IMG/VR virus record: IMGVR_UViG_3300032285_000366
Span: 1-20,429 of that record
Strand: one strand, 5' to 3'
DNA from: a virus
Length of the DNA: 20,429 nt
This document shows positions 2,698-18,530 of this stretch, in pieces; position 1 is the stretch's first letter, and every line of letters starts with the position of its first letter. The position numbers were made by a program, and so were the translations under genes. The notes below the pieces were generated by a model. The model did no database searches, was not told the origin of the DNA, and saw only the letters and a program-made list of their open reading frames with translations.

Positions 2698-2702
2698 AGT
2701 AT

Positions 2703-2710
2703 CATAAATA
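2703..2710 (+). promoter_or_regulatory. Late-promoter-like CATAAATA
   Basis: CATAAATA differs at one base from the T4 late promoter element TATAAATA and lies just downstream of the first fibre stop. A transcript starting a few bases downstream would begin inside the hairpin at 2712-2734. This is a motif match only; no start site is known. Confidence 0.4.
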
Positions 2711-2711
2711 C

Positions 2712-2734
2712 ATGGTGGGTGTAAGTCCCACCAT
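2712..2734 (+). other. Perfect 8-bp hairpin in intergenic gap
   Basis: ATGGTGGG (2712-2719) pairs perfectly with CCCACCAT (2727-2734) around a 7-nt loop, TGTAAGT. No T-run follows directly, so it is not a classic terminator alone. It sits immediately 5' of a second hairpin at 2735-2750. Confidence 0.6.
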
Positions 2735-2760
2735 CTCAGTATATACTGAGTATTGTTTTC
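2735..2760 (+). terminator. Possible terminator after the first fibre gene
   Basis: CTCAGTATATACTGAG (2735-2750) is a perfect 16-bp palindrome. As RNA it can fold as a 6-bp stem with an ATAT loop, and it is followed by TATTGTTTTC. The short, AT-containing stem and interrupted T-tract make it weaker than the terminator after gp19. It could alternatively be a protein-binding palindrome. Confidence 0.45.
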
Positions 2761-2766
2761 TAAATA
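2759..2766 (+). promoter_or_regulatory. Late-promoter-like TCTAAATA before the second fibre
   Basis: TCTAAATA differs from the T4 late element TATAAATA at one base. It lies 12 nt before the ATG at 2779. The CTAAATA core recurs before gp18 and gp19, which supports a genuine phage-specific late motif. The predicted leader would be very short. Confidence 0.5.
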
Positions 2767-2778
2767 GAATAGGTTATT

Positions 2779-5700
2779 ATGGCCAATAAAGTTTTAATAA
2801 AACGCTCTTCAGTAGCGAGCAAGAATCCAGCAACGACAGATTTATCGTTGGGAGAACTTGCGTTAAACACTTATGATGGTAATCTATTCTTCAAGAAATC
2901 TCCAAATGGCAATGATGCCATTGTCACTGTTGTCACATTAGATGGCACACAAACCCTAACAAACAAAACACTAACAACTCCAACCATCGGAACAATCTAT
3001 GCTCCTAGTGGTAGTAACCTCGTTCTTTCAGCGAATGGTTATACTTGGACACACGGAACTAATGGTAATCTAACATTTCCTGATGGTAGTGTTCAACCAA
3101 CAGCCTATACTGGTCCATTTTCAAAAGTTATTGCAAACACAACGGCAACTGCTAACTGTGGTTACTTAGCAAACACTGGCGCAGGTGCTTTCACAATAAC
3201 ATTACCAGCATCTCCATTAACTGGACAGTTTGTCGTTATTGCGGATGATAATAATTTTGGAACAACTCCGCTTTATGTTGGTCGTAACGGAAACCCAATC
3301 GCAGGACAACCACAAGATTTAACAATAGATATTGCTGGCGCATCAGTTACACTTATGTATGATGGTGGTAGCTGGAATGTTTATTCGCAAATTGGCGCAA
3401 CTGGTGGATCTGGTTCTGGTGGAACTCAGTATAACTTTAGTAGTTTTCCTCAAGGATTAATTCCTGACACAAATAACACTTATGCTCTTGGCAACACAAC
3501 ATATAAGTGGTCAGCTGTTAATGCTTATACATATCGTTTCGGCGATAACACTACTCAAACAACAGCATCAAATGCTGATAGTTCTTCTATTACTAATAGT
3601 GGTGGAACTATTACTGCTCAAGCAGGTGGTCTTGCTGGAAACACACTAAACTCTGGTGTAGTTTATTCAAGTTTACAAACTCTTGGAACACAAACCCAAA
3701 GAATTAATTGGCAAGGTAGCGGTGTCGCTGCTCCACAATTTACTTCCTCAAGTGTTGGAACAAAGCTACTTCTATATCCTGCTATTAGCAGTGGTAGCGC
3801 AGATTATGCTATTGGTATTGAAAGTGGAACAATCTGGTATGGTCTTCCAAACGCATCTTCAGGGTATTTCTTTAAGTGGTATGGTGGAACCACAAACCTA
3901 ATGCAGTTGGAAGGAAGTGGTGCGCTAACTATTACCACCCCTACTCTATTAACAACTAGCACTGGTACTGCTTCCGTATTTAATACTAATGCTACTACCC
4001 TAAACATGGGTGGTGCAGCAACTACTGTTAGTATCGGATCTTCTTCTGGTACTACAACTGTTAATAATAACTTGGTTGTTACTGGAACATTTACTGTTAA
4101 TGGTGCCACAGAAACAATCAACGCAACAACAATCCAAGTAGCAGATAAAAATATTGAACTTGGCAAGGTAGCAACACCAACTGACACTACAGCAGATGGT
4201 GGTGGTATCACATTAAAAGGTGCTACTGATAAAACTATTATTTGGGATAGCGCAAATAATAACTGGACATCTTCAGAAAACTGGAATATTGCTACTGGTA
4301 AATCATTTAAAATTAATAATGTTTCAGTTTTAAACTCAACGACTCTTGGTTCAGGTGTTACTGGTTCTTCTCTAACTTCTGTTGGAACAATTACTTCTGG
4401 TACTTGGTCAGGTTCTTTCGGTGCTGTTTCTGGCGCAAACTTAACATCGCTTACTGCTGGTAACTTAACAGGAACAATTCCTTCAACAGTTTTAGGCAAT
4501 TCAACTGTTTATATTGGTACTACTGCAGTTGCATTAAATCGTGCGTCTGGTAATTTAGCGTTGACTGGTATTCTTAGTGAAACCTATTCAGGTTCTACAT
4601 CTGGAACAATTCAACTTATCCCAGCTGCTATTGCTGGCACTGGTACTGTTATTACTTTGCCAGCTACAACTGGTACTGTTGTAACAACAGGCGATTCTGG
4701 CACTGTTACTAATACTATGTTGGCTGGTTCTATTGCTACTAGTAAAATTACTGGTTTAGCAACATCAGCAACAACTGATACAACAAATGCTACAAACATT
4801 ACAAGCGGAACATTACCAAATGCTCGTTTGTCAAGCATTCCAAATACAGCTCTCGCAAACAGTTCAGTAACAGTTGGAACAACTGCGATTGCGCTTGGTG
4901 CTTCTAGCACAACTCTTGCTGGTTTGACATCTGTTTCGTCTACAAGTTTTACTGGTGCATTAACAGGTAACGCATCGACTGCCACTACTTTGGCAACTGC
5001 TCGTGCTATTAATGGTGTAAACTTTGATGGTTCTGCTGCGATTACTGTTAAAGCGAGTACAACAAATGCTTTAACAATTAGTACTGGTTTATCTGGAACA
5101 TCTTTCGATGGTTCTTCTGCTGTTACTATTGCTATCGACTCAACAGTTACTACGCTTACTGGTACACAAACCCTAACAAATAAAACTCTAACAACACCAA
5201 CTATTAATGGTGCTGCTCTTTCAGGCACATTATCTGGAACTCCAACTTTTTCTGGTTTAGTTACACTAAACTATACTGGCGCAGGTTCTACTTCTACTCT
5301 GAACCTTGCTGGTTATAACAGCAAAGGTGGTACTGGTTATCATGACTTCTTAATTGCCACAAACGGATACGGTAGCGCAACTAACCCAAGCAAGTGGTTT
5401 AGGATAAACAGCACTGGTGCATTGGAAATTATTAACAATGCATATACTGCTTCACTATTCAACCTAAGTGATAGCGGAGATTTGGTAATTGCTGGTAACT
5501 TAACTCAAGGTGGTTCTCGTCCAGCATTCCGTGTTTATGGTGGTGGAACAACAGCGATTAACGCAACAAATACGCTTACTAGCAGTAACTGGGTTGTTGA
5601 TTATCAGCAAGGTTCTAACTTAAATGGAACTACTGGTGTCTTTACTGCGCCAGTAGCAGGATTATATCAAGTTGGTCTTGTGGCAAGATGGGGTGGTTCT

Positions 5701-5913
5701 GCTAGTACATCAGCAATTCAAGTCCAAAAGGTAAGTGGTGGTACTACAACAACCCAACTTTATCTAGAATGGGCAGGGAATTCAACATCATTCCATATGG
5801 GCGGTTCTGCAATTGTTAAAATGGCAACAAACGACACGCTTAAATTAACTGTTACTGCAGGTACTGTTACATTCGATGCCAACGACCAGTGGTCTGTTGC
5901 GTTCATAGGATAA
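2779..5913 (+). CDS. Tail fibre with C-terminal C1q-like domain
   Basis: This 1044-residue protein starts at ATG 2779, with a weak AGG 5 nt upstream. Residues 1-45 (KVLIKRSS...LGELALNTYDGNLFFKK) match the N-terminal virion-attachment segment common in marine phage fibres. The shaft holds NKTLTTPT units, a 'TTLNMGGAATTVSIG' unit near 400, an 'ADKNIELG...TTADGGGITLKG' domain near 456, and an 'LATARAINGVNFDGSAAITV' module near 735. Residues 917-1044 (nt 5527-5910) look like a C1q/TNF-like beta sandwich: FTAPVAGLYQVGL in the middle and NDTLKLTV...DQWSVAFIG at the end, with the usual length of about 130 residues. C1q-like domains are trimeric and common at fibre tips, so this is a candidate receptor-binding end. 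The next gene starts 3 nt after its stop. The family call is firm, the C1q call moderately firm, and the receptor role inferred. Confidence 0.85.
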   Translation: MANKVLIKRSSVASKNPATTDLSLGELALNTYDGNLFFKKSPNGNDAIVTVVTLDGTQTLTNKTLTTPTIGTIYAPSGSNLVLSANGYTWTHGTNGNLTFPDGSVQPTAYTGPFSKVIANTTATANCGYLANTGAGAFTITLPASPLTGQFVVIADDNNFGTTPLYVGRNGNPIAGQPQDLTIDIAGASVTLMYDGGSWNVYSQIGATGGSGSGGTQYNFSSFPQGLIPDTNNTYALGNTTYKWSAVNAYTYRFGDNTTQTTASNADSSSITNSGGTITAQAGGLAGNTLNSGVVYSSLQTLGTQTQRINWQGSGVAAPQFTSSSVGTKLLLYPAISSGSADYAIGIESGTIWYGLPNASSGYFFKWYGGTTNLMQLEGSGALTITTPTLLTTSTGTASVFNTNATTLNMGGAATTVSIGSSSGTTTVNNNLVVTGTFTVNGATETINATTIQVADKNIELGKVATPTDTTADGGGITLKGATDKTIIWDSANNNWTSSENWNIATGKSFKINNVSVLNSTTLGSGVTGSSLTSVGTITSGTWSGSFGAVSGANLTSLTAGNLTGTIPSTVLGNSTVYIGTTAVALNRASGNLALTGILSETYSGSTSGTIQLIPAAIAGTGTVITLPATTGTVVTTGDSGTVTNTMLAGSIATSKITGLATSATTDTTNATNITSGTLPNARLSSIPNTALANSSVTVGTTAIALGASSTTLAGLTSVSSTSFTGALTGNASTATTLATARAINGVNFDGSAAITVKASTTNALTISTGLSGTSFDGSSAVTIAIDSTVTTLTGTQTLTNKTLTTPTINGAALSGTLSGTPTFSGLVTLNYTGAGSTSTLNLAGYNSKGGTGYHDFLIATNGYGSATNPSKWFRINSTGALEIINNAYTASLFNLSDSGDLVIAGNLTQGGSRPAFRVYGGGTTAINATNTLTSSNWVVDYQQGSNLNGTTGVFTAPVAGLYQVGLVARWGGSASTSAIQVQKVSGGTTTTQLYLEWAGNSTSFHMGGSAIVKMATNDTLKLTVTAGTVTFDANDQWSVAFIG

Positions 5914-5916
5914 TAA

Positions 5917-6459
5917 ATGGCTAATACATTACTCTCATCTATTGTCGCACCTAGTGCTATTGTCACTCTTACTGGAACACAGACATTAACGAATAAAACA
6001 CTTACTAGTCCTACAATAAATAGTGCGACAGCCAATAACTTAACTCTTACTGGCTCACTAACTGCTGGTGGTAATACTGGTTCTAATGGTCAGTTTTTAA
6101 AATCTACTGGTTCAGGTGTTGTTTGGGCAACTCCTGGCGGAAGCACATTGGCATCACTTTCTGATGTTGCGTTATCAAGCCCAACAACGAATCAAGTTTT
6201 AACATATAATGGAGCAAACTGGGTCAATGCTGCATCTAATGCGCAAATTGCTTCTGCCGTATTTGCGTCTTCAGCTTCTGATCTTGGATTTGTTTATGAT
6301 TCTGCTTCTATTACTGAAGATGAAGGATCGGTTACTGGATCGAATAACTATGTATATGATCTAGGCATTTTAAGTTTTACAGGTATTATATCATTGGGTA
6401 ACTTGGATCAATCAGTTAAAACTGATTATCTTGGATACTCTATTATTTTTGGATTCTAA
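5917..6459 (+). CDS. Small fibre-like virion protein (180 aa)
   Basis: It starts at ATG 5917 after a double stop (TAATAA) ending the preceding fibre. The Shine-Dalgarno AGGA at 5907-5910 lies inside that gene's last codons, so translation is probably coupled. Residues 1-60 contain one TLTGTQTLTNKTLTSPT unit, followed by a 'GSNGQFLKSTGSGVVWAT' unit and 'LASLSDVALSSPTTNQVLTYNGANW', all typical fibre linkers. The last ~70 residues (SASDLGFVYDSASITEDEGS...YDLGIL...YSIIFGF) resemble the acidic 'DLG/YDLG' tails of proteins in T4-like aquatic phage fibre clusters. It lacks a recognisable N-terminal anchor or C-terminal chaperone. It could be an accessory fibre or adaptor; no specific function can be assigned. 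Confidence 0.7.
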   Translation: MANTLLSSIVAPSAIVTLTGTQTLTNKTLTSPTINSATANNLTLTGSLTAGGNTGSNGQFLKSTGSGVVWATPGGSTLASLSDVALSSPTTNQVLTYNGANWVNAASNAQIASAVFASSASDLGFVYDSASITEDEGSVTGSNNYVYDLGILSFTGIISLGNLDQSVKTDYLGYSIIFGF

Positions 6460-6467
6460 GGAATAAC

Positions 6468-9341
6468 ATGGCTCGCCAACTAATTGAAAAATATATTTTT
6501 AGCCCAGGAACTGCTGGTAATGGAACATTAAAGTTTCCAGGAAAGTGCGATTTAACTCAATTGTTGATTATCGCAAACAAAACCAATCAAGCAAACATGT
6601 ATGCGATTGGCGATCCAACTCGCAGTGGTACTATTTCTTACGATCCCGCAGATAATACTACATTTTATTCAGAACAACAAGGTGTATCAACTGTAACTTT
6701 TTCTGCTGATACTTCTTCATATACTTCATCTGATAAAATTTCTATCTATACTGATGCTCCTAAAAACATTGGTAATATTGTTCGCCCATATGCCTTCGGT
6801 GTTGATGCGATTGAACGCCAGCGTGTTTCTAATCCACAGTCACTAATTGACGCTGACTTTGAATATGGATTACAGCCTACTAAGTGGACAAACTATGCGG
6901 ATATTAGAAATATTCCAGGCATTTATGAGCGTCCAGGTCTTGACTTGTTTGTTACTAATGTAACAACAGATGGCGCATCTCCTTCACTAATTACAGTAAC
7001 AACTTCAGCAGATCATGGTTTAAGTGCTGCTAACCCTGTTATTGTTTATGGTTTAAGTGGAACTAGCACTGCGTCAAGAGCAGAAGGTTCATATGTTGTT
7101 AACACTGTTCCAACAACTAAAACTTTTACTTATTACTCAAAGGGTATTGTTGGAACAAACGGACAATCGCTGTTTAATCCAAGCACTTACGCTCGTAAAG
7201 GTGGTTTTTATACTGGCGCAGGTTTAGCAGTTTCTTCTATTACTTCAAACGCAGCTTCCCCATCAGTAATTACTGTAACAACTTCAGCAAATCATGGTCT
7301 TGTCCCAGGATCTCCATTAGTCGCAGTTGCTACTTCTTCAGGAACAAATCATAGTTTATTAACTGGAGACTTTTTCGCAGAAACAGTTCCATCATCGACT
7401 ACTTTTACTTTTACTGCTCGAGTTGGCGGTGCTGTTGCTAACTCAGCAATTGCCGCAAACATTTATACTCGTTCTGATGCGTTTACTTTACATCGACCAT
7501 TTGATGGTGGTGTTCAGCTTGGTAACTTTAACCCATGTCATGGTGCGTCGATTTCTCGTCAAACTAAAAAGTATATGCGTTATCAATCTGGTAAAGGATT
7601 GCTTTGGACATCTGGTGTTTTGTTCAACCCAGTTTTAAACCTTGATCAAATTTCTGCATCTGGTACGGCATCAGGTTCTTTAATTACAATTACAACTGAA
7701 ATTGACCATGGTCTTCAGGCTGGTGCAATTGTTGTAGTTAGTGGTGTTCTTACTTCTGGATATAATGGAACATATGGTATCTATGCGATAACAAGCGAAA
7801 CATCATTCCAAGTAGTTGCATCTGCCACGCTTGGTTCTGCTTCTGCTGTTCTCACTTCATTCCCTCGTGTTACTTGTACTAACTGGTCAGGTGCCACTGT
7901 TCGATGCGGTCCATTCGATGAACAGAATGGAGTTTTCTGGGAATATGATGGTAAAGAATTGGCAGTTGTTAAGCGTTCTTCAACATATCAAATTTCAGGA
8001 TCAGTTACTGTAAATAATAACTCACAATCAGTTACTGGTTCTTCATGTCGTTTTACCCAACAATTAAAAGTTGGTGATAACATTGTTATTCGTGGTATGA
8101 CTTATAAAGTTGGTACGATTACTGATGATAATACCATGACAATTAACCCTGCTTATCGTGGATTAAATACATCATCTGGTGTTAAAGTTGTTTTAACATC
8201 TGACCAAAGAATTCCTCAATCTCAGTTTAACTTTGATAAAATGGATGGAACAGGATTCTCTGGGTATAATGTAAACTTAAATAAAATGCAGATGATGGGA
8301 ATTTCTTTCTCATGGTATGGTGCTGGTTTTATTGACTTTATGATGCGTGGCGCAGATGGTAACATGGTTGTTGCTCATCGTATGAAACAAAACAACTTAA
8401 ACGATGAAGCGTACATGAGAACAGGTAACATGTCTGTTCGATATCAAGTTAAAAATGAATCAGCAGTTTCTACTCTTGCTTCGGATATCACAAACTCAGC
8501 AACATCTATTCCTCTAGTTGATGCTTCTCGTTTCCCTTCTACTGGTGGAACAGTGCTAATTGAAAACGAAATTATTAACTATACTGGTATTTCTAGTAAT
8601 ACTCTAACTGGATGTACTCGAGCAGCAACTCTTTCTTGGTTTGCTTCTGGAACAACAAGAAACTTTACTGGCGGTTCTGCTGCATCACATAGTGCTGGCG
8701 CAGCATTGAAAACATCTGTAATTTTAATTAGCTGTACTGCTTCTCCTACCATTGCTCACTGGGGATCTTCTTATATTATGGATGGTGGATTCGATAGTGA
8801 TCGTGGTTATTACTTTAACTATACACCATCAACAGTTACTCTAACAACTGGTCAATCAAAAACTGCATTCTTCCTTCGTTTGGCTCCTGCAGTTTCTAAC
8901 TCTATTTCTGGAACACTGGGCGACCGCGATTTGATTAATCGTTCATTGTTGTTACTACAAAAATTACAGATTCAGTCTGATGCTTCTGTTCAAGTTTATG
9001 GCATTTTGAATCCATCAAACATTTCAGCATATACCGATTTGACATGGACATCTGTTAATACTGTTGCATTGGGTTCTCAACCTTCATTCTCTCAGATATC
9101 GACTTCAGTTACTACTGTCGCCAATCCAGGAGAACAGGTTTTCTCGACTCTGGGTCAACCAAACGGATTTGCCGAAATTGACTTGGGGCAGTTGAAAGAA
9201 CTTTCAAATTCATCCATTGGTGGATATAATAATTATCCAGATGGTCCCGATGTCTTGGCAATTGTCGTTAAAAATATTGCTGCTGGCGGTGGTTCTGCCA
9301 ATGTAAACATTAACTTATTCTGGTCAGAAGCGCAAGCATAA
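6468..9341 (+). CDS. Large modular virion structural protein with HGL repeats
   Basis: This 957-residue protein starts at ATG 6468 with AAGGA 5 nt upstream, overlapping the preceding stop. The N-terminus (MARQLIEKYIFSPGTAGNGTLKFPG) and 'DADFEYGLQPTKW' near residue 128 resemble uncharacterised virion proteins of aquatic T4-like phages. Three repeats 'ITVTTS..HGL..G.P..V' are centred on His183, His276 and His414, each followed by a '..Y.V.......TF..' strand. Residues ~507-566 hold a 'VTGSS.RF...LKVGDNIVIRGMTYKV...NPAYRG' module. Residues ~668-720 hold 'LVDASRFPSTGGTVLIENEIINYTGISSNTLTGCTRA', another common phage tail module. Composition is more balanced than in the neighbouring repeat fibres. 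In T4 this locus would hold gp10-gp12-type tail proteins, so a tail/baseplate-attached adhesin scaffold is plausible, but direct homology is not visible. Confidence 0.7.
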   Translation: MARQLIEKYIFSPGTAGNGTLKFPGKCDLTQLLIIANKTNQANMYAIGDPTRSGTISYDPADNTTFYSEQQGVSTVTFSADTSSYTSSDKISIYTDAPKNIGNIVRPYAFGVDAIERQRVSNPQSLIDADFEYGLQPTKWTNYADIRNIPGIYERPGLDLFVTNVTTDGASPSLITVTTSADHGLSAANPVIVYGLSGTSTASRAEGSYVVNTVPTTKTFTYYSKGIVGTNGQSLFNPSTYARKGGFYTGAGLAVSSITSNAASPSVITVTTSANHGLVPGSPLVAVATSSGTNHSLLTGDFFAETVPSSTTFTFTARVGGAVANSAIAANIYTRSDAFTLHRPFDGGVQLGNFNPCHGASISRQTKKYMRYQSGKGLLWTSGVLFNPVLNLDQISASGTASGSLITITTEIDHGLQAGAIVVVSGVLTSGYNGTYGIYAITSETSFQVVASATLGSASAVLTSFPRVTCTNWSGATVRCGPFDEQNGVFWEYDGKELAVVKRSSTYQISGSVTVNNNSQSVTGSSCRFTQQLKVGDNIVIRGMTYKVGTITDDNTMTINPAYRGLNTSSGVKVVLTSDQRIPQSQFNFDKMDGTGFSGYNVNLNKMQMMGISFSWYGAGFIDFMMRGADGNMVVAHRMKQNNLNDEAYMRTGNMSVRYQVKNESAVSTLASDITNSATSIPLVDASRFPSTGGTVLIENEIINYTGISSNTLTGCTRAATLSWFASGTTRNFTGGSAASHSAGAALKTSVILISCTASPTIAHWGSSYIMDGGFDSDRGYYFNYTPSTVTLTTGQSKTAFFLRLAPAVSNSISGTLGDRDLINRSLLLLQKLQIQSDASVQVYGILNPSNISAYTDLTWTSVNTVALGSQPSFSQISTSVTTVANPGEQVFSTLGQPNGFAEIDLGQLKELSNSSIGGYNNYPDGPDVLAIVVKNIAAGGGSANVNINLFWSEAQA

Positions 9342-9344
9342 ATA
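9337..9344 (+). promoter_or_regulatory. Late-promoter-like CATAAATA before the S74 fibre
   Basis: CATAAATA overlaps the stop of the HGL virion protein and lies 20 nt before the next ATG. It differs from TATAAATA at one base. It is followed by AGAGGAAAA (9351-9359), the Shine-Dalgarno for the ATG at 9365. This is a motif match only. Confidence 0.4.
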
Positions 9345-9364
9345 TACCAAAGAGGAAAATATAA

Positions 9365-11785
9365 ATGTCATCCCAAGTCCAATTTCGAAGAGGTACAACT
9401 ACTCAGAACAATGCGTTCACTGGAGCGCAGGGCGAACTTACAATCGACACTGATGTAAAAACAATTCGTATCCATGATGGTTCAACTGCTGGTGGTGGTG
9501 CGACTGTTGTTACTTTAACTGCTACACAATCATTACAGAATAAAACACTATCGACTGGTTCGACTTGGTCTGGTAATGCTGTTGGTTTAGGTTATGGTGG
9601 TACTGGGTCATCATTGTCTGCTGTAGCTGGTGCTGTTACTTATTCTACTTCTGGCGGTTTAGCATTAACTGCTGCTGGATCTTCTGGTCAACTATTACAA
9701 TCTGCTGGGTCAGGAACTCCAATTTGGGTCAGTGCTTCTAGTTTAACAACTGGCACTGCAACAAACGCAACAAACGCAGTAAATATTACTGGTGGTTCTG
9801 CTGGTTATCTTGTCTATCAGTCTGATGTTAATACTACTGCGTTTATTGCTCCAGGAACTGCTGGTTATGTATTAAAATCTACTGGTGCTTCTACTGCACC
9901 ATCTTGGGTTACATCAAACTTTACTGTTGGTTCTACTGCAGTTTCCGTTGGTACTACTGTTACTGACTTTGCTGGATTTACTTCTTTAGATGGAACATCT
10001 GGTTCTACTTCATATTTCCCAACACCAACTGCTCCAGTTTTATTTGCTGGTGCAACAACTCTAACAGTTGGATATGGTTCAACTGCTTCTTCTACAACAA
10101 ACTTATCGACTGGCACAACAGGTTCTGGTAATACTAAAACAGTAAACATCGGTACTGGCGCAGCAGCAAGTTCAACAACTAATATTAACATTGGTTCTTC
10201 TAATGGTGGGACAACTACTATTAACTCAGGAACTGTTGTTGGTGCGTTGACTACACAAAACTTATTTAATACTGTAGCGACTACACTTAATATCGGTGGT
10301 GCTGCTACAACTTTAGCATTAGGTGCTTCTACTGGTACTGCGACTATCGCCAACCCAACAGTCACATTAACTAATGCTACTGCGTTGAACCTTAATGGCT
10401 CATCTCCAGTTATTGCTACAACGAGTACCACTGCTTCTGTGTTTAACACCAATGTTACAACACTTAATATTGGTCAAGCAGCAACTACTATTTCGATGGG
10501 TGCTTCTGGTTCTGGAACAACAACTGTTCGTAATGATTTAACTGTAGGTGGTAACTTAACTGTTCAAGGTACTACTAATACCGTTTCATCAACTAATACA
10601 ACTTATGCTGACTCCATTTTAGAATTACATTATTCTAATGGTGGAACTTTAACATCTGATGATGGTAAAGATATCGGTCTTCGTTTCCACTACTACAAAA
10701 CTACAGATAAAAACGCTGCGCTGGTTTTAGCGAACGACTCCTCAAATATGGAGTTTTATTTAAATGGTACTGAAACTACTGGTGTATTTTCTGGAACATA
10801 TGGTTATTTTAAAGGTGCTGGTTTTAACTACGCTGGTTCTACTTCTGGTGTTATTACATTACAAGCAGCAGCAACAGCTGGCACAAATACTATAACACTA
10901 CCAGCTGTAACTGATACTCTTGTTGGATTAGCTGCTACTCAGACATTAACTAATAAAACTCTTACCAGTCCAACTCTAACAACACCAGCATTGGGTGTTG
11001 CTACTGCGACTTCTATTAACAAAGTAGCAATTACTGCTCCAGCAACTTCTGCTACTTTAACATTGGCAGATGGTTCTACTCTGGCAACTTCAGGAGCATT
11101 TAGTACAACTCTAACTGCCACTGCCACGACTGCTGTAACATTACCAACAACTGGTACTTTAGCGACATTGGCTGGTAGCGAAACTCTTACTAATAAAACT
11201 ATTTCTGGTGGAACATTAACTGGTACTCTAACTGCTGGTGCTTCTGTTGGAACTAACGGACAATATTTACAATCTACTGGAACTGGCGTTCAGTGGTCAA
11301 CTGTTTCAACTACATTTACTCTTGGTTCTACATCAATCTCTGGCGGTTCAACTACTACATCAGTTGCTGGATTTACTGCTATCGCAATTAATGGTACAGG
11401 TGGATCGCTTGGTGTTGGTACTACTGCTTCTGGTACTTCTGGAGAAATTCGTGCAACTAACGCAATCACTTCTTATTACTCTGACGATCGTTTAAAGACT
11501 AAAACTGGTAATATTCAGAATGCTCTTGAGAAAGTTCTTTCTCTTGATGGTTTTCACTACCATGCAAACGAAATTGCTGCAGAGTTAGGATATGATTCTA
11601 CTAAACAAGAAGTTGGTTTATCTGCTCAACAGGTTCAAGCTGTTATGCCAGAAGTTGTTGTTCCAGCTCCAATCGGTCGCGATTATCTAACTATTCATTA
11701 TGAAAGAGTTATCCCATTGTTGGTTGAAGCAATCAAAGAGCAACAAAAACAAATCGAAGAATTAAAAGCAAAACTAGGAAACTAA
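9365..11785 (+). CDS. Tail fibre/whisker-like protein with Peptidase_S74 chaperone domain
   Basis: This 806-residue protein starts at ATG 9365, with GAGG 9 nt upstream. Residues 1-45 (QVQFRRGTTTQNNAFTGAQGELTIDTD...IRIHDG) match the N-terminal segment of Mtd-like phage adhesins. The shaft carries three NKT units, several 'TTLNIG.AATT...GAS.G' units, and a 'YADSILELHYSNGG...DDGKDIGLRFHYY' domain at about residues 413-440. Residues 706-806 (nt 11480-11782) are a Peptidase_S74 intramolecular chaperone: SDDRLK start, GLSAQQVQAVMPEVV core, LTIHYERVIPLLVEAIKEQ, then a coiled-coil-like QKQIEELKAKL tail. Ser706 and Lys711 have the Ser-to-Lys+5 spacing of the autocleavage dyad in this family. Cleavage before Ser706 would release about 101 residues after trimer folding. 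It lies directly upstream of gp13, the position of wac (fibritin) in T4. Domain call firm; whisker role inferred. Confidence 0.9.
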   Translation: MSSQVQFRRGTTTQNNAFTGAQGELTIDTDVKTIRIHDGSTAGGGATVVTLTATQSLQNKTLSTGSTWSGNAVGLGYGGTGSSLSAVAGAVTYSTSGGLALTAAGSSGQLLQSAGSGTPIWVSASSLTTGTATNATNAVNITGGSAGYLVYQSDVNTTAFIAPGTAGYVLKSTGASTAPSWVTSNFTVGSTAVSVGTTVTDFAGFTSLDGTSGSTSYFPTPTAPVLFAGATTLTVGYGSTASSTTNLSTGTTGSGNTKTVNIGTGAAASSTTNINIGSSNGGTTTINSGTVVGALTTQNLFNTVATTLNIGGAATTLALGASTGTATIANPTVTLTNATALNLNGSSPVIATTSTTASVFNTNVTTLNIGQAATTISMGASGSGTTTVRNDLTVGGNLTVQGTTNTVSSTNTTYADSILELHYSNGGTLTSDDGKDIGLRFHYYKTTDKNAALVLANDSSNMEFYLNGTETTGVFSGTYGYFKGAGFNYAGSTSGVITLQAAATAGTNTITLPAVTDTLVGLAATQTLTNKTLTSPTLTTPALGVATATSINKVAITAPATSATLTLADGSTLATSGAFSTTLTATATTAVTLPTTGTLATLAGSETLTNKTISGGTLTGTLTAGASVGTNGQYLQSTGTGVQWSTVSTTFTLGSTSISGGSTTTSVAGFTAIAINGTGGSLGVGTTASGTSGEIRATNAITSYYSDDRLKTKTGNIQNALEKVLSLDGFHYHANEIAAELGYDSTKQEVGLSAQQVQAVMPEVVVPAPIGRDYLTIHYERVIPLLVEAIKEQQKQIEELKAKLGN
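11108..11200 (+). repeat. TLPTTGTLATLAG-NKT module, copy C
   Basis: This 31-codon module in the S74 fibre is 30/31 identical in protein to copy A at 1351-1443, but 19 codons differ, including Ser AGC against TCA. It links the first and fifth adhesin genes as protein-level paralogues. Confidence 0.85.
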
Positions 11786-11786
11786 T

Positions 11787-12824
11787 ATGGCGATTCCAGC
11801 AACTAGAGCCGATTTTAAAAATTATTGCCTACGCAATCTTGGCGCACCTGTGCTTGAGATAAATGTGGACGATGATCAATTAGAAGATCGTATTGATGAG
11901 TCGTTAGATATCTTCCGTCTTTACCACTATGATGGCATTGAAAAATTATATTTGAAGCATCAAATTACTGCTTCAACGATGAAGATTACATCCAATAACG
12001 GATTATCTTTTGCTGGTAATTCTAAAATTGTTGGACAAACATCAGGTGTTTCGGCAACTGTTTATGGATCACAGAATGGTGTTACACCATATAACACTGA
12101 TCAATCTTTACTTTATGTTGCTCGTTTAATTCCTGTTGTTGCTGGTCGCCCAACTGGACCAACAGTTATGTTTACTCCTGGAGAAACTATTAAAGGTGTT
12201 AATGCTTCAGGCGCAACAGTTACTGGAACAATTAGCACTGATACAGATTGGTTTACTCCTGGCGATATTGAGAATAGATATATTCCTATCGCTGATTCAG
12301 TTTATGGTGTAACAAGAGTTATGCCATTGTTCCAAGGAACATCTTCTTCTAAATCAATTTTTGACTTACAATATCAATTGCGTCTGAACGACCTTTATGA
12401 TTTGTCTAGTACCTCATTGATTTACTACACAACTGTTATGCAACACTTGGCTACTTTGGACTTGTTGCTTAATGGTAAACCTATCTATCGCTTCAATCGT
12501 TTAGAAAACAGATTACAAATTGACATCGACTGGCTCAATGGTCAAAAAATTGATGTCGGTAATTATGTTATCGTTGAAGCATATCGTGGTTTAGATCCTA
12601 ACGAATTCTCTAAAGTCTGGAATGAGCCATGGCTCAAGCGTTATACTACTGCGTTGTTTAAGCGTCAGTGGGGAACCAACCTTAAAAAGTTTTCTGGACT
12701 ACAACTTCCAGGCGGTGTAACTTTGGATGGTAATTTATTATATCGCGAAGCGAATGACGAAATTAAAGCACTCGAAGACGAACTACAAAATAAATCTGCT
12801 CCACTCGACTTTATGATGGGGTAA
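11787..12824 (+). CDS. gp13: gp13-like neck (head completion) protein with insertion
   Basis: This 345-residue protein starts 1 nt after the previous stop, with AGGA 7 nt upstream. Residues 1-60 (MAIPATRADFKNYCLRNLGAPVLEINVDDDQLEDRIDESL...YHYDGIEKLYLKHQIT) closely follow T4 gp13, which with gp14 closes the filled head and joins it to the tail. Residues ~160-345 (DIENRYIPIADSVYGV...IFDLQYQLRLNDLYDL...DIDWLNGQKI..GNYVIVEAYRGLDP) continue the family. Between them, residues ~65-158 form an insertion containing two similar units: 'FAGNSKIVGQTSGVSATV' and 'FTPGETIKGVNASGATVTG'. The insertion accounts for the excess over T4 gp13 (about 309 residues, from memory, with other loops shorter here). Family assignment is firm; the insertion's function is unknown. 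Confidence 0.93.
   Translation: MAIPATRADFKNYCLRNLGAPVLEINVDDDQLEDRIDESLDIFRLYHYDGIEKLYLKHQITASTMKITSNNGLSFAGNSKIVGQTSGVSATVYGSQNGVTPYNTDQSLLYVARLIPVVAGRPTGPTVMFTPGETIKGVNASGATVTGTISTDTDWFTPGDIENRYIPIADSVYGVTRVMPLFQGTSSSKSIFDLQYQLRLNDLYDLSSTSLIYYTTVMQHLATLDLLLNGKPIYRFNRLENRLQIDIDWLNGQKIDVGNYVIVEAYRGLDPNEFSKVWNEPWLKRYTTALFKRQWGTNLKKFSGLQLPGGVTLDGNLLYREANDEIKALEDELQNKSAPLDFMMG
11979..12260 (+). other. Insertion domain within gp13
   Basis: This marks residues ~65-158 of gp13, between KHQIT and DIENRYIPI, which I recall as nearly adjacent in T4 gp13. It contains two F..GE.I.G..SGA..TG-type units and a linker with RPTGP. The composition is beta-rich and close to the phage adhesin modules upstream. 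The boundaries are estimates. Confidence 0.6.
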
Positions 12825-12827
12825 TTA

Positions 12828-13886
12828 ATGCCACGCAATGTCTACTTTTCCCAAGGAACTGCCAATGAACAGTATCTTCTTGAAGATATTATCATTGAAT
12901 CAATGCAGATTTATGGGCAAGATTTCTACTATATCCCAAGAACTCTCGTAGCCAAAGATAATATTCTTGGCGAGGATAGACTGTCTGAGTTTAAGGAAGC
13001 ATATGGTATTGAAATGTATCTTGAAACCAATCAAGGATTTGAAGGTCAAGGTGCTTTCATTGAAAAGTTTGGTTTAATGATGGAACAGTCAGCAACTCTT
13101 ACAGTTGCTCGTCGCCGTTGGGATCAACTCGTTGGTCGTTTCGGGCAGACTCAATTACCAAATAGACCATGTGAAGGCGATCTATTATATTTTCCTTTGA
13201 CCAAAGGTCTATTTGAAATTAAGTTTGTTCAACATCAAGACCCATTCTATCAGCTTGGTAAACTTTATGTTTATCGTCTTAATGTTGAATTGTTCCAGTA
13301 TGCTTCTGAACATATTGACACTGGTCTTAAAGATATTGATGTGTTCGAAACTCTTAAGACTTACGATACTGACTACGCAAGAAATGCGATTGGTTCAGTA
13401 ACCCATGTTAATATTACTAATGCAGGTTCAGGTTATACAACCACACCAACTATTACATTGACAGGTGGTGGCGGAACTGCTGCTTTCCAACCAGCATCTC
13501 TTTCTCTAGTAATGACATCTGGTGCAGTTTCAGCAATTAATATTGTAGATGTTGGCACTGGTTATGACACTGCTCCATCTATAACTATTGGAACTTGGTG
13601 GACAGCTACGACTGCAGTAAATACTAATGTAAATATTGCCTACAGTAATAAATTATATAAAGTTACAACTGCAGGAACACTTGGAGCAACACCACCAACT
13701 CATACTACTGGTTCAGCTGCCAATGGTTCTGCTATTTTATTATATGTTGGTACGCCAGCTACTGCGGTTGCTACTATTGAATCTAATCCAGATTTACCAA
13801 ACTCATTTGGTGACAATATTAAATTTAAGGCAGAAGCAACTGATGTTGTGTTCAATGTTAATAATCCGTTCGGAGATATTCAATAA
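12828..13886 (+). CDS. gp14: gp14-like neck protein with beta-module insertion
   Basis: This 352-residue protein starts at ATG 12828, with only a GGGG run (12818-12821) as a weak Shine-Dalgarno, so coupling to gp13 is likely. Residues 1-180 (MPRNVYFSQGTANEQYLLEDIIIESMQIYGQDFYYIPRT...ENQ-type neck core...YQLGKLYVYRLNVELFQYASEHIDTGL) match T4 gp14, the partner of gp13 in the neck. The end (DNIKFKAEATDVVFNVNNPFGDIQ) is also family-like. Residues ~190-318 are inserted: two 'GSGYTTTPTITL'-type repeats at 199-212 and 242-254, then 'YSNKLYKVTTAGTLGATPPTHTTG' at 272-295, a module frequent in phage tail adhesins. T4 gp14 is about 256 residues, so the insertion explains the extra length. The gene ends in TAATG, shared with the gp15 start. 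Confidence 0.92.
   Translation: MPRNVYFSQGTANEQYLLEDIIIESMQIYGQDFYYIPRTLVAKDNILGEDRLSEFKEAYGIEMYLETNQGFEGQGAFIEKFGLMMEQSATLTVARRRWDQLVGRFGQTQLPNRPCEGDLLYFPLTKGLFEIKFVQHQDPFYQLGKLYVYRLNVELFQYASEHIDTGLKDIDVFETLKTYDTDYARNAIGSVTHVNITNAGSGYTTTPTITLTGGGGTAAFQPASLSLVMTSGAVSAINIVDVGTGYDTAPSITIGTWWTATTAVNTNVNIAYSNKLYKVTTAGTLGATPPTHTTGSAANGSAILLYVGTPATAVATIESNPDLPNSFGDNIKFKAEATDVVFNVNNPFGDIQ
13395..13781 (+). other. Insertion in gp14: GSGYT repeats plus LYKVTTAG module
   Basis: This marks residues ~190-318 of gp14. It holds ITNAGSGYTTTPTITL and IVDVGTGYDTAPSITI, the same repeat found four times in the gp18 insertion. The following LYKVTTAGTLGATPPTHT segment is a common phage adhesin unit. Boundaries are approximate. 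Confidence 0.7.
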
Positions 13887-14611
13887 TGCTTAATATCCCA
13901 CCATTCTATCACGGATTGACTCGTAAAGTTATCGTATCATTCGGTAGTCTATTCAGTAATATTAAAATTCAGCGTGAGAAAAACGATGGAACGATTGGCC
14001 AAGAACTGGTTATTCCTCTAACTTATGCTCCAAAAGAAAAATGGTTAGTTCGTATTGAACAAGATCCAGCATTGGAAAAGCACACATATATTACTCTTCC
14101 AAGAATGTCTTTTGAAATTACTGGTATGTCCTACGATGCGTCAAGAAAAACAAATCGTATGAATAAAATTACTGCCAATAACAGTAACACTTCACCAACA
14201 ACAGTAAATCAATCATATAGTCCTGTTCCTTATAATTTTGATATTTCTTTATATGTTATATCAAAAACGCAAGAAGATTGTCTTCAGATTATTGAACAAA
14301 TTCTTCCTTTCTTTACACCTGAGTTTACCCTAAGTATTAACGCTGTTCCAGAGTTAGACCTAACAATGGATATTCCTATTATTTTAAACAGTGTAAATAT
14401 TGAAGATAACTATGATGGGACATTTCAAGAAAGAAGATTTGTAACATATACTTTAAACTTTACTGTTAAGTCTAATTTCTATGGTCCAGTTACAAACGCT
14501 GGTCCAATTACTACTGTCTTTATCAATGATACTCAGCCAAGCAGGAAATATACTGCCACTGGCGATTTTACAACGAATACTATTACTGAATCTTGGCACG
14601 ATACCTTTTAA
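13886..14611 (+). CDS. gp15: gp15-like tail completion / sheath stabiliser protein
   Basis: This 241-residue protein's ATG (13886-13888) overlaps the last base of the gp14 stop (TAATG); GGAG lies 10 nt upstream, so reinitiation is likely. Recognisable T4 gp15 features are 'LFSNIKIQR' (22-30), 'VIPLTYAPKEKW' (42-53), 'LPRMSFEITGMSYDASRKTN' (71-90), 'YSPVPYNFDISLYV' (111-124), and 'CLQIIEQILPFFTPEFTLSIN' (132-152). T4 gp15 forms a hexamer that caps the tail tube and sheath and joins the tail to the neck. The protein is shorter than T4 gp15 (about 272 residues), mainly at the C-terminus, and unlike gp13, gp14 and gp18 it carries no extra beta module. Confidence 0.93.
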   Translation: MLNIPPFYHGLTRKVIVSFGSLFSNIKIQREKNDGTIGQELVIPLTYAPKEKWLVRIEQDPALEKHTYITLPRMSFEITGMSYDASRKTNRMNKITANNSNTSPTTVNQSYSPVPYNFDISLYVISKTQEDCLQIIEQILPFFTPEFTLSINAVPELDLTMDIPIILNSVNIEDNYDGTFQERRFVTYTLNFTVKSNFYGPVTNAGPITTVFINDTQPSRKYTATGDFTTNTITESWHDTF

Positions 14612-14614
14612 ATA

Positions 14615-16249
14615 ATGACTGATTTTTATAATGCTAATCCCAATCTGAAGTCGATTGGAGTACAGGTCAACTATACTCCAGAACAGGTACAGGAAATTAT
14701 TAGGTGTAAGACTGATTATATTTACTTCATTGAAAACTACTGTCAGATTGTTACTCTTGACCATGGTCTTCAGTTGTTTAAACTCTATGAGTGTCAAAAG
14801 AAAAAGTTAAAAATTATCCACGAGAATAGAAAAGTTATTCTTATGGAAGGTCGTCAGCAAGGTAAGACTACTTCTTCTGCTGCCTACATTCTTTGGTATA
14901 CTTTGTTTCAAGAAGCAAAAACAGTTGCTATTCTTGCCAACAAAGCAACAGCTGCTCGCGAAGTTTTAACTCGTTATCAAACTATGTACGAAGGACTTCC
15001 TATCTGGATGCAACAAGGTATCCGTGGTTGGAATAAAGGAGATATTGAGTTAGAAAATGGATCCAAAGTATTCACTGCTGCTACTTCTGCTTCTGGTATT
15101 CGTGGTAAATCTGTTAATCTTTTATATGTCGATGAAGCTGCGATCATTCCCAATACTGTTGCTGAGCAGTTTTTTACTTCTGTTTATCCTACAATTTCAG
15201 CTGGCGAAACGACAAAGATCCTGTTATCTAGTACCCCACTTGGATATAATCATTTCTGGAAATTCTGGAACGATGCCGAACATGGTCGTAATGGATTCGT
15301 AAACTGTTTTATTCCTTATTGGGAAATTCCAGGTCGTGATAAGAAATGGGCTGATGAACAAAAGGGAATTCTTGGCGACCTGAAGTTTAACCAAGAGGTA
15401 CTATGTAAATTCCTCGGCTCGGCAATGACTTTGATCAATGCCGATGTTATTGGTGCTATGTCTCCAACTTATCCTATGTTCTCGAAAGATGGACTAGATG
15501 TGTTTGAAGAGCCAGTCTATGAAATGGAATCTGGCAACTTCGATAACTTCGGTAAGCCAGTAATGAAACCACCACACACTTATGTGTTAATTGCCGATGT
15601 CTCGGCAGGTGTTGAGGGCGACTACTCAGCTTTCTCTGTTATTGATATTACATCAGCACCATACAAACAGGTTGCCAAGTTTAGAAAGAACGATGTTTCA
15701 GCTTTACTGTATCCAAACTTTATCTACAAGGTTGCCAAAGAATACAATAATGCCTACATTTTAGTAGAGATAAATATAAGTGAGCAGGTTGCTAACATTT
15801 TGCACAACGAATTAGAATATGATAACCTTTTGTTCGTGAATAGAAACACCCAAGGACAAGCAGTTTCTGGTGGTTTCGGTGGTGGTCGTGCCCAGTTGGG
15901 TGTGGTCACTGATAGAAAGGTAAAACGAATTGGTTGTATGAACCTGAAAACTATGGTCGAGGAACAAAAATTATTGATTCCAGATGCCGATACGATTTCA
16001 GAAATTACGACTTTCATCGAATCAAAGGGTTCTTATGCAGCAGATGATGGGTACTGTGACGATCTAGTAATGACTTTGGTTTTATTTGGTTGGCTAACTA
16101 CCCAGCCATATTTTAAAGATTTAAATGATATCAATCTAAGGGACTTAATTTATAGGTCTCGAATAAAAGCGATTGAAAATGAATTAACGCCATTTGGGTT
16201 TATAGCAGACGGACAGGGTTCAGAGGAAAAACCTCTTCTAAACTTCTAA
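14615..16249 (+). CDS. gp17: Terminase large subunit, gp17-like (ATPase + nuclease)
   Basis: This 544-residue protein is the DNA-packaging motor. Walker A is GRQQGKTT (79-86). Walker B is LLYVDE (169-174), with Asp173 and Glu174. The coupling motif is LLSSTPLG (203-210). The RNase H-like nuclease residues are Asp328 (DVSAGVEGDYS), Glu385 (VEINISE) and Asp482/Asp483 (DDLVM). The 57-residue spacing from Asp328 to Glu385 equals that of T4 Asp401 to Glu458. The family is intact, somewhat shorter than T4 gp17 (610 residues). It cuts concatemeric DNA and pumps it through the portal gp20, also encoded here. The gene begins 3 nt after gp15 with no visible Shine-Dalgarno (TTTTAAATAATG), so it probably relies on coupling and is made in small amounts. 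gp16, which precedes it in T4, is absent. Confidence 0.97.
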   Translation: MTDFYNANPNLKSIGVQVNYTPEQVQEIIRCKTDYIYFIENYCQIVTLDHGLQLFKLYECQKKKLKIIHENRKVILMEGRQQGKTTSSAAYILWYTLFQEAKTVAILANKATAAREVLTRYQTMYEGLPIWMQQGIRGWNKGDIELENGSKVFTAATSASGIRGKSVNLLYVDEAAIIPNTVAEQFFTSVYPTISAGETTKILLSSTPLGYNHFWKFWNDAEHGRNGFVNCFIPYWEIPGRDKKWADEQKGILGDLKFNQEVLCKFLGSAMTLINADVIGAMSPTYPMFSKDGLDVFEEPVYEMESGNFDNFGKPVMKPPHTYVLIADVSAGVEGDYSAFSVIDITSAPYKQVAKFRKNDVSALLYPNFIYKVAKEYNNAYILVEINISEQVANILHNELEYDNLLFVNRNTQGQAVSGGFGGGRAQLGVVTDRKVKRIGCMNLKTMVEEQKLLIPDADTISEITTFIESKGSYAADDGYCDDLVMTLVLFGWLTTQPYFKDLNDINLRDLIYRSRIKAIENELTPFGFIADGQGSEEKPLLNF

Positions 16250-16252
16250 AAA

Positions 16253-16260
16253 ACTAAATA
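16253..16260 (+). promoter_or_regulatory. Late-promoter-like ACTAAATA before gp18
   Basis: ACTAAATA lies 4 nt after the terminase stop and 68 nt before the sheath ATG. The CTAAATA core matches those at 2760 and 18534 and resembles the T4 late element TATAAATA. It would give an independent strong late start for the abundant sheath protein. Confidence 0.55.
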
Positions 16261-16300
16261 ATCTAGTGAATGCTTAAACTTTCAATGGCACAAACAAATA

Positions 16301-16312
16301 ACATGTACATGT
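16301..16312 (+). other. 12-bp perfect palindrome in the gp18 leader
   Basis: ACATGTACATGT is a perfect palindrome, also two tandem ACATGT units, placed 3 nt before the AAGGAG Shine-Dalgarno (16316-16321) of gp18. It would lie in the predicted 5' leader. Function unknown; chance occurrence is possible. Confidence 0.4.
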
Positions 16313-16328
16313 AACAAGGAGAATTACA

Positions 16329-18530
16329 ATGCCTTTTCAACTTAGTCCAGGTGTTGCAGTCGTAGAAAAAGACTTTTCGTCAATCGTTCCAGCAGTTAGT
16401 TCTTCTGTTGGTGCCTTTGCAGGTTCTTTTGCTTGGGGTCCAGTTCTGCAACCAATTACCATCTCTTCTGAGAATATTTTGGTTCAGCGTTTTGGAAAAC
16501 CTAACGATTCCAACTTTACCTCATTCTTTTCCGCTGCAAACTTTTTGTCATACACAAATAACTTGTTGACAGTTCGTGCTGATGGAACAAATTTAAGAAA
16601 TGCCGTTCACATTAAATCTGGTGGTTTATCTACACTAGCAATTAATGCTGCTGGTTCGGGATATACTTCAACTGCTGCAGCACCTGCTGTAACAATTTCT
16701 GCCCCAGACGAGGCTGGTGGTATTCAAGCCACTGCTACTTGCACACTTTCTGGTGGCGCAATTACTGCGATCGCTGTTTCTAGTGGTGGTACTGGATATA
16801 GCGGAACAGTTAATATTACTGTTACTCGTGGTGCTGGTGATACTACTGGTTCTGGCGCATCTGGTGTTGCTGTTCTTTCTGGCGGTGCAATCGCTTCTAT
16901 CACTGTTACTGGTGGTTCTGGTTATACTAAAACTCCAACTGTAGCAATTTCTGGCGCAAACCAATCAGCTACTTTAGGTGCTGTAACTGTTGGCACTTCA
17001 ACTATTACTGGTATTACTATTGGAACTTTTGGTTCTGGTTATGCTGCTACTCCTACTGTAACAATCGCTGCTCCTCCTTCAGGAACTACTGCCACTGTTA
17101 CTGTTGGCACGCCAAATACAACTGGTGTTAAGATTAAAAATTCTGAAGACTATGTAACAAGTTTTTCAACTGGACAAGGTTTGTTTGGAGAATTTGGCGC
17201 AAAATATCCAGGAACTTTAGGTAATGGTATAATTGTTTCCTACGCTGACAATGCTACTTACTCAACTTGGACATATAAATCACAGTTTGATTCTGCTCCA
17301 GGAACTTCTACTTACGCTACTAGCGTTGGCGCTTCTAAAGACGAACTCCATATTATCGTTGTTGATGGTACTGGTGTTTGGACTGGAACTCCAGGAACTG
17401 TTCTTGAGAAGTTCGCTTATGTTTCTAAAGCAGGTGATGCTAAAAAGCCAGACGGAACTAATAACTTCTACAAAGATGTAATTAATAGCAACTCACAATA
17501 TATCTGGTGGTTAGATTATCCACAAGTTGTTTCTCCAACTACTAACTGGGGTTCTTACGCTACTGGCGCAGTAACTTATACTGATGCTCAAACAGATGCT
17601 AAAGCTGGATTTACTCTTTCTGGTGGTGTTGATGATTTCACTTTCAGTGATGCCAACCAACAAGATGCGTATACATTGTTCTCTAATGCAGAACTCTATG
17701 ATGTAAGTTTGATTATCGCTGGTAAAGCATCTGCAACTAATGCTGCATTCATTGCTGACTTGGCTAAGACTCGTGCTGATGCCGTTGCTTTTGTTTCTCC
17801 ACAATCAGTTGCTGATGGTTCACCAATCGTTGGTAATACTTCAACTCAGACTGACGCAATCGTTGCTTTCCGTAATGCTATGAATACTATTCACAGCTAC
17901 GCTGTTATGGATTCTGGTTACAAATATCAATACGATCGTTATAACGACAAGTATCGTTATGTTCCATTGAACGCTGACATTGCTGGTTTGTGTGCTCGTA
18001 CTGATTACTCTAATGACCCATGGTGGAGTCCAGGTGGATATAATCGTGGACAAATTAAGAATGTTGTTCGTTTGGCTCATAACCCTGATCAAACAAATCG
18101 CGACACTCTTTACAAGGCTGGCGTAAACCCAGTTGTTTCTTTCCCAGGACAAGGTATTATCCTTTACGGCGATAAGACTCTACAAACTAAACCAAGCGCA
18201 TTCGATCGTATTAATGTTCGTCGCTTGTTTATCGTTCTAGAAAAAGCAATCGCAACTGCTGCTAAGTATCAGTTGTTCGAATTTAACGATTCGTTTACTC
18301 GTGCTCAGTTTGTTAACATGGTTGAACCATTCCTCCGTGATGTTCAAGGTCGTCGTGGTATTAACGATTTCCGTGTTAAGTGCGATGATACTAATAACAC
18401 TGGACAAGTTATCGATAGCAACCAATTTGTGGCTGACATCTTTATTAAACCAGCTCGCTCTATCAACTTTATTACTCTGAACTTTGTTGCTGCTCGCACT
18501 TCTGCGAACTTCACAGAGATCGGTGGATAA
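16329..18530 (+). CDS. gp18: Contractile tail sheath protein, gp18-like
   Basis: This 733-residue protein has ATG 16329 preceded by a strong AAGGAG with 7-nt spacing. The N-terminus (LSPGVAVVEKD...VGAFAGSFAWGPV...FGKPND...SAANFLSYTNNLLTVRAD) and residues ~524-733 (GYKYQYDRYNDKYRYVPLNADIAGLCARTD...SPGGYNRGQI...YGDKT...FDRINVRRLF...ARSINFITLNFVA) follow T4 gp18, the contractile sheath that drives tube penetration. Residues ~105-260 form a surface-type insertion with four 'GSGYT..P.V.I' repeats (109-123, 154-165, 196-207, 235-246). T4 gp18 also has extra protruding domains at this general place, but the repeat type differs and the total is longer than T4's 659 residues. The late-promoter-like motif and strong ribosome site fit its need for well over 100 copies per virion. 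Confidence 0.96.
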   Translation: MPFQLSPGVAVVEKDFSSIVPAVSSSVGAFAGSFAWGPVLQPITISSENILVQRFGKPNDSNFTSFFSAANFLSYTNNLLTVRADGTNLRNAVHIKSGGLSTLAINAAGSGYTSTAAAPAVTISAPDEAGGIQATATCTLSGGAITAIAVSSGGTGYSGTVNITVTRGAGDTTGSGASGVAVLSGGAIASITVTGGSGYTKTPTVAISGANQSATLGAVTVGTSTITGITIGTFGSGYAATPTVTIAAPPSGTTATVTVGTPNTTGVKIKNSEDYVTSFSTGQGLFGEFGAKYPGTLGNGIIVSYADNATYSTWTYKSQFDSAPGTSTYATSVGASKDELHIIVVDGTGVWTGTPGTVLEKFAYVSKAGDAKKPDGTNNFYKDVINSNSQYIWWLDYPQVVSPTTNWGSYATGAVTYTDAQTDAKAGFTLSGGVDDFTFSDANQQDAYTLFSNAELYDVSLIIAGKASATNAAFIADLAKTRADAVAFVSPQSVADGSPIVGNTSTQTDAIVAFRNAMNTIHSYAVMDSGYKYQYDRYNDKYRYVPLNADIAGLCARTDYSNDPWWSPGGYNRGQIKNVVRLAHNPDQTNRDTLYKAGVNPVVSFPGQGIILYGDKTLQTKPSAFDRINVRRLFIVLEKAIATAAKYQLFEFNDSFTRAQFVNMVEPFLRDVQGRRGINDFRVKCDDTNNTGQVIDSNQFVADIFIKPARSINFITLNFVAARTSANFTEIGG
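16641..17108 (+). other. Insertion in gp18 with four GSGYT repeats
   Basis: This marks residues ~105-260 of the sheath protein. Repeats read AGSGYTSTAAAPAVTI, GGTGYSGTVNITV, GGSGYTKTPTVAI and FGSGYAATPTVTI, each preceded by an 'I..I.V' strand. It probably folds as a repetitive beta domain on the outside of the sheath. The same repeat type occurs in gp14. Confidence 0.75.

Follow-up and report, generated by a model that had tools for sequence, protein, structure and literature searches.

The window, by which we mean the whole analysed stretch of 20,429 nucleotides (a 20.4-kb virus record), carries the structural cluster of a T4-like phage: fibre-like genes, gp13, gp14, gp15, gp17, gp18, gp19 and gp20. 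Several fibre-like ORFs at positions 1–11785 have common TQTLTNKTLT-type motifs; one of the fibre-like ORFs there ends in a weak C1q-like match, and another combines Mtd_N with a Peptidase_S74 chaperone. The gap between gp15 and gp17 (14611–14615) lacks the small-terminase gene gp16, which is present there in T4 and several relatives. For the AlphaFold2 model of gp14 the top Foldseek match was T4 gp14 in the portal-neck-tail complex (2.4e-10), while the whole gp18 model matched T4-type sheaths, this being a match of the entire protein and not a proof for the domain considered below. A reading of the DNA from the sequence only had noticed in these two proteins a common repeat, two copies in gp14 and four in gp18, and had taken it for a mobile module inserted on the tail exterior. 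The features concerned are:

12828–13886, plus strand: gp14 neck (head-closure Hc2) protein, 352 aa, core residues 1–187 (Pfam T4_neck-protein E=2e-31; PHROG 460 E=6e-85)
13389–13517, plus strand: gp14 repeat 1, residues ~188–230, GSGY at 200 (strands 189–198, 209–212, 224–230)
13518–13592, plus strand: gp14 repeat 2, strands 1–2, residues ~231–255, GTGY at 243 (motif and model)
13593–13751, plus strand: nested mini-domain, residues ~256–308 (~50), in the strand 2–strand 3 loop of repeat 2 (Foldseek, phmmer)
13752–13790, plus strand: gp14 repeat 2, strand 3, residues ~309–321 (model strand 312–319)
13791–13883, plus strand: conserved gp14 C-terminal tail, residues 322–352 (near-invariant SFGDN...NPFG in gp14 alignment A2)
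16329–18530, plus strand: gp18 tail sheath protein, 733 aa (Pfam Phage_sheath_1, Phage_sheath_1C, Gp18_domIII_N; PHROG 23 E=2.5e-126)
16617–16757, plus strand: gp18 repeat 1, residues ~97–143, GSGY at 109 (motif, model, copy scan)
16758–16883, plus strand: gp18 repeat 2, residues ~144–185, GTGY at 154 (motif, model, copy scan)
16884–16994, plus strand: gp18 repeat 3, residues ~186–222, GSGY at 196 (motif, model, copy scan)
16995–17117, plus strand: gp18 repeat 4, residues ~223–263, GSGY at 235 (motif, model, copy scan)

The same ~40-residue repeat is present in neck gp14 and sheath gp18, far above chance. The GxGY motifs follow each other with a spacing of 39–45 residues, and one repeat consists of a strand, the GxGY turn, a strand, a loop and a further strand. 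Against a profile built solely from sheath repeats of other contigs gp14 of the window scored 53.3 bits, whereas 2,000 shuffles of its segment with preserved composition gave at most 0.8 bits and the gp14 core −2.7, which refutes pure chance or composition as the source of this likeness and confirms the initial count of two and four copies. Nevertheless the six copies are not all plain, as the second repeat of gp14 is split by the mini-domain. The gp18 repeats are also recognized by the profile of PHROG 460, to which gp14 belongs (E=2.8e-14). In the AlphaFold2 models three strands per repeat were registered in gp14 and gp18 alike, with block-mean pLDDT of ~80–90 in gp18 and 68–91 in gp14, so that dissimilar folds of the two segments, named beforehand as an outcome fatal for a common module, are not what the predicted strand pattern suggests. 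Pfam has no family for the repeat, and none of 22 repeat pairs matched its Ig-like families at a significant E-value; PHROGs hold the repeat within several families without naming it, and PHROG 460 already includes it. With the repeat segments alone tblastn against phage records gave no match, probably due to masking and divergence, and profile search was used instead.

As judged from their sequences, the copies of gp14 and gp18 are anciently diverged. Their identity is 0.2–0.5 and within one phage no higher than between phages, for which reason recent gene conversion between the two genes was rejected; it is also disfavoured by the best DNA stretch that they have in common, a 53-nt motif-coding segment with 60–72% identity. 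Repeats 1–4 of gp18 are positionally orthologous across contigs (0.50–0.53 vs 0.37–0.41), and the four-copy array is therefore old.

Relatives in the viral collection, i.e. contigs bearing sheath and neck genes, were collected with window sequences as queries, and the sample is thus biased to repeat-bearing sheaths. All 68 complete sheath relatives have 2, 4, 6, 8 or 10 copies, 67 of them by scan (2 copies in 21 sheaths, 4 in 38, 6 in one, 8 in four and 10 in three) and one by eye, though few independent copy-number changes stand behind this even parity. The exceptional sheath (L039) was counted by the scan as having 5 copies, and a degenerate sixth one was found in its motif list. For gp14 of relatives the number of copies was 0, 2 or 4, the lone “3” being due to a weak match of 7.7 bits inside the nested mini-domain. 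The scan produced three matches in 21,383 control residues of sheath core. Since the parity is so strict, one can take two repeats together as the unit of evolution, and three strands per repeat therefore predict a six-stranded domain per pair; the AlphaFold2 models have 12 strands in the gp18 array, and in gp14 there are six apart from the nested element. According to these models each pair of repeats probably folds as one small surface domain, and the even copy number supplies domain boundaries for expression and structure work. Variation in copy number and absence in some relatives agree with the discrete accessory domain supposed at the outset.

In the alignment the gp18 array (residues ~97–263) lies opposite residues 91–195 of T4 gp18, starting at residue ~97. 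It is flanked by the conserved NAV and GVKI.N blocks, with the N-terminal part of Domain III before it and Domain II beginning after it, and in T4 this position belongs to Domain I. The latter comprises residues 98–188 of T4 gp18, forms a six-stranded barrel with a helix and protrudes outward; it takes no part in gp18–gp18 contacts, reaches the baseplate and serves as the binding site of the long tail fibres in their retracted state (PMC3004832), a role known for T4 only. Alignment to this outward-facing domain argues for the outward placement of the gp18 repeats that had been proposed. Among the nearest relatives the Domain I site of gp18 is a site of module change. The array was undetected there in the isolates Mosig, DLP6, ACG-2014d and SRB7757, the sheaths of S-WAM1 (L006) and S-SZBM1 (L007) have at this place another repeat, GD.L.ID.E...RG....H..G, and many T4-like sheaths are without any detectable copy of the repeat. 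In Variovorax phage V45v66 (L177, PV558790.1; sheath ORF in L181) the Domain I site is empty, and a GxGY pair occupies a second site of gp18 near the end of Domain II.

The gp14 pair is located in the C-terminal arm before the conserved tail. Its site corresponds to residues 178–256 of T4 gp14, which have no ordered structure until joining and, in the virion, are in contact with gp15 (PMC12270204). Relatives with gp14 of 203–219 aa have no pair. One contig without it in gp14 (L020), with 81% identity to the window across the residues aligned, still has the sheath array, while ACG-2014d has a pair in gp14 and no copy detected in gp18; the presence of the module in one protein is therefore independent of its presence in the other. 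The mini-domain nested in repeat 2 matched the tailspike of cyanophage Pam1 (7eea) with an rmsd of 0.9 Å over 55 columns, 36% identity and E=2.4e-3 by Foldseek, and with E=0.012 by phmmer. It is absent from gp14 of relatives such as L100, occurs in the same loop of gp14 repeat 1 or 2 in ten other contigs, and was found in the same loop of the last gp18 repeat in three (L045, L061, L077). The loop between strands 2 and 3 is thus a permissive insertion site in both gp14 and gp18.

Matches of the pair profile were obtained in 14 of 17 records. Annotated ones are virion proteins or unnamed genes of tail clusters: gp14, gp18, gp15, gp8-type wedges, large baseplate proteins and a tail fibre; no match was given by annotated replication or metabolic genes among those examined. 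Related aquatic phages have the pair in gp15 (Mosig), in gp8-type wedges (DLP6, BUCT-ZZ01) and in other wedge proteins, and matches in BFVD include the neck protein of S-RIM32. Thus, the profile search found the repeat in many virion proteins of related phages beyond gp14 and gp18, and the suggested sharing of the module by these two proteins stands, but not its specificity for them. The tailspike Dpo31 of a marine podovirus also matches the profile (E=4e-4), and in its solved structure the pair is D3*, an Ig-like domain that is inserted and protrudes; D3* alone has no depolymerase activity and by DALI is weakly similar to sugar-binding domains (PMC13317679). A separate observation in BFVD is a protein of Sylvanvirus, a giant virus (A0A3G5AH46), which matches part of the gp14 model with E=4.6e-6.

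Direct profile–profile comparison of the repeats with T4 Domain I was weak (E=0.12; the score of 16.7 was second-best against 60 shuffles, one of which scored higher), and the search with the GxGY-pair profile (A3) gave no match in T4 or RB69. A connection nevertheless appeared through a third protein. With T4 Domain I as a tblastn query of the phage collection, one non-sheath protein was found among the matches listed, a baseplate protein of V45v66 (E=6e-3, 38% identity over 79 aa), which the Straboviridae Domain I profile recognized with E=2e-5. Exactly the same stretch matches the GxGY-pair profile too (E=1.4e-6 and 2.6e-6), and GxGY stretches make up many of the matches that the Domain I profile gave below threshold. 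The first half of T4 Domain I contains a GSNY motif, while in the second half little of the motif is left (GKNY in T4, GKII in most relatives). Based on this transitive link through the baseplate protein of V45v66, T4 Domain I is likely to be a diverged GxGY pair of common origin with the others. The view of the gp18 repeats as a mere insert with no counterpart elsewhere was dropped, as T4 Domain I is aligned opposite them; they may have arisen by expansion of the Domain I common to T4-like sheaths and not be foreign at all. Insertion into gp18, as originally conceived, is weakened by this, although many T4-like sheaths without a detectable copy still speak for it; and if one takes T4 Domain I for a diverged pair, the ancestry of the repeat in T4-like gp18, which had been seen as the refuting case, holds in part. 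The mutation G106S in T4 gp18 inhibits tail-fibre retraction. Together with two other mutations of this kind, S175F and A178V, it fits the T4 numbering without the initiator Met, and in that numbering G106 is the first glycine of GSNY.

The explanation that we consider probable is that the repeats are half-units of a small transplantable surface-contact domain, of which T4 Domain I is a diverged member. What was observed here is the identity of the repeats, their even copy number, their location by alignment, their distribution and their absence in relatives. Two consecutive GxGY repeats of three strands each would form one six-stranded beta domain of predicted fold. By this count the window would have three of them: a tandem of two in gp18, presumably exposed on the sheath exterior where T4 has Domain I, and a single one in the C-terminal arm of gp14. 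The domain may be dispensable for assembly, as its absence in relatives suggests. It may have been gained, lost and expanded in pairs, and various proteins of the neck, sheath, baseplate and fibres may have received it at sites that tolerate an insertion. With its exposed contact surface it could hold retracted fibres on the sheath, as T4 Domain I does, and/or adhere weakly to glycans of the host or environment; stabilisation of the sheath, or no function at all, is also conceivable. A broader claim could equally prove right or wrong, namely that the GxGY pair is an unrecognised virion domain family of tailed phages that includes T4 Domain I, is reused across sheath, neck, baseplate and fibres, expands only by pairs and has the motif turn as its docking surface. 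If the latter is true, G106S would be a lesion of the signature glycine of the family, and the overlap of the motif with this classical mutation makes the docking role directly testable.

Among known systems T4 gp18 Domain I (gp18M, 3FOA) is the closest, sharing the place in the sheath, six strands per unit as predicted for the pair, the GSNY of its first half and the predicted outward position. However, it is a single domain with an extra helix while gp18 of the window has two tandem pairs, it is similar only transitively, the repeat profile giving no direct match, and its six-stranded barrel is compared here with six strands per pair as counted in the model. D3* of Dpo31 from marine phage Carin-1 has two GxGY repeats in a protruding inserted domain, but this is a single pair in the beta-helix of a podovirus depolymerase (PMC13317679), and the fold labels differ as well: D3* is reported as Ig-like, while T4 Domain I is called a barrel. 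Proteins of PHROG 460 (Hc2; gp14 of cyanophages such as ACG-2014d) have the same C-terminal repeats, and gp14 of the window corresponds to their layout of core plus GxGY repeats (E=6e-85 in two stretches), yet the name and annotation of the family are silent on the repeat and no nested mini-domain was identified there. Ig-like accessory domains of sheaths (types 2 and 3 of Evseev et al., PMC9230969) are also extra beta domains located away from the tube and are thought to help adhesion or stability; unlike the present case, no repeat-pair signature, even-numbered expansion or sharing with gp14 and baseplate proteins is described in the available part of that text. In the receptor-binding domain of the Pam1 tailspike (7EEA) segment 494–546 resembles the mini-domain of gp14, but the match is confined to these ~55 residues and does not involve GxGY repeats. 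Accessory domains of sheaths were known before; in the present case a single unit, defined by its sequence and missing from Pfam, connects proteins of the neck and baseplate in aquatic phages with a tailspike domain of solved structure and, probably, with T4 Domain I.

The sequence-only reading preferred a mobile decoration module that passes from one virion gene to another and helps the particle above all to adhere to surfaces of the host or the environment; this seems to us possible but rather unlikely. The same domain in many non-homologous virion proteins, the second sheath site in V45v66, the independent presence in gp14, the tailspike-like mini-domain of gp14 and the weak resemblance of D3* to sugar-binding domains (PMC13317679) agree with it. 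That reading is supported in part, but gp14 and gp18 show no sign of having exchanged repeats recently, the gp18 array with its orthologous repeats is old, and D3* alone shows no depolymerase activity. Still more doubtful is a structural brace, in which tandem domains give the virion stability through contacts with gp15 or with adjacent sheath subunits. Extra sheath domains were proposed to cement tails (PMC9230969), and the site of the gp14 module contacts gp15 in T4 (PMC12270204); T4 Domain I, however, makes no gp18–gp18 contacts (PMC3004832), and copy numbers from 2 to 10 with total absence in many T4-like sheaths misfit a fixed interface. Convergent Gly/Ser/Thr-biased filler, with gp14 and gp18 copies of no common origin, is very improbable despite the low-complexity composition and just 20–50% identity of the copies, given the shuffles, the periodic three-strand pattern, the even parity and the nested insert in the same loop.

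Next to the transplantable surface-contact domain, which we prefer, an insertion and other repeats were seen in the window. In gp13 (11787–12824) there is an insertion of ~95 residues relative to PHROG 211 (335 aa on 241 profile positions), at residues ~60–160; its G.SGA.A.V-type sequence by eye looks like a stretch of the S-WAM1 sheath. The ORF at 6468–9341, a virion protein of PHROG 5838, has by eye about three [DN]HGL-type repeats near residues 170–420, and a stretch like the sheath repeat of S-WAM1 and S-SZBM1 was also seen in this ORF.
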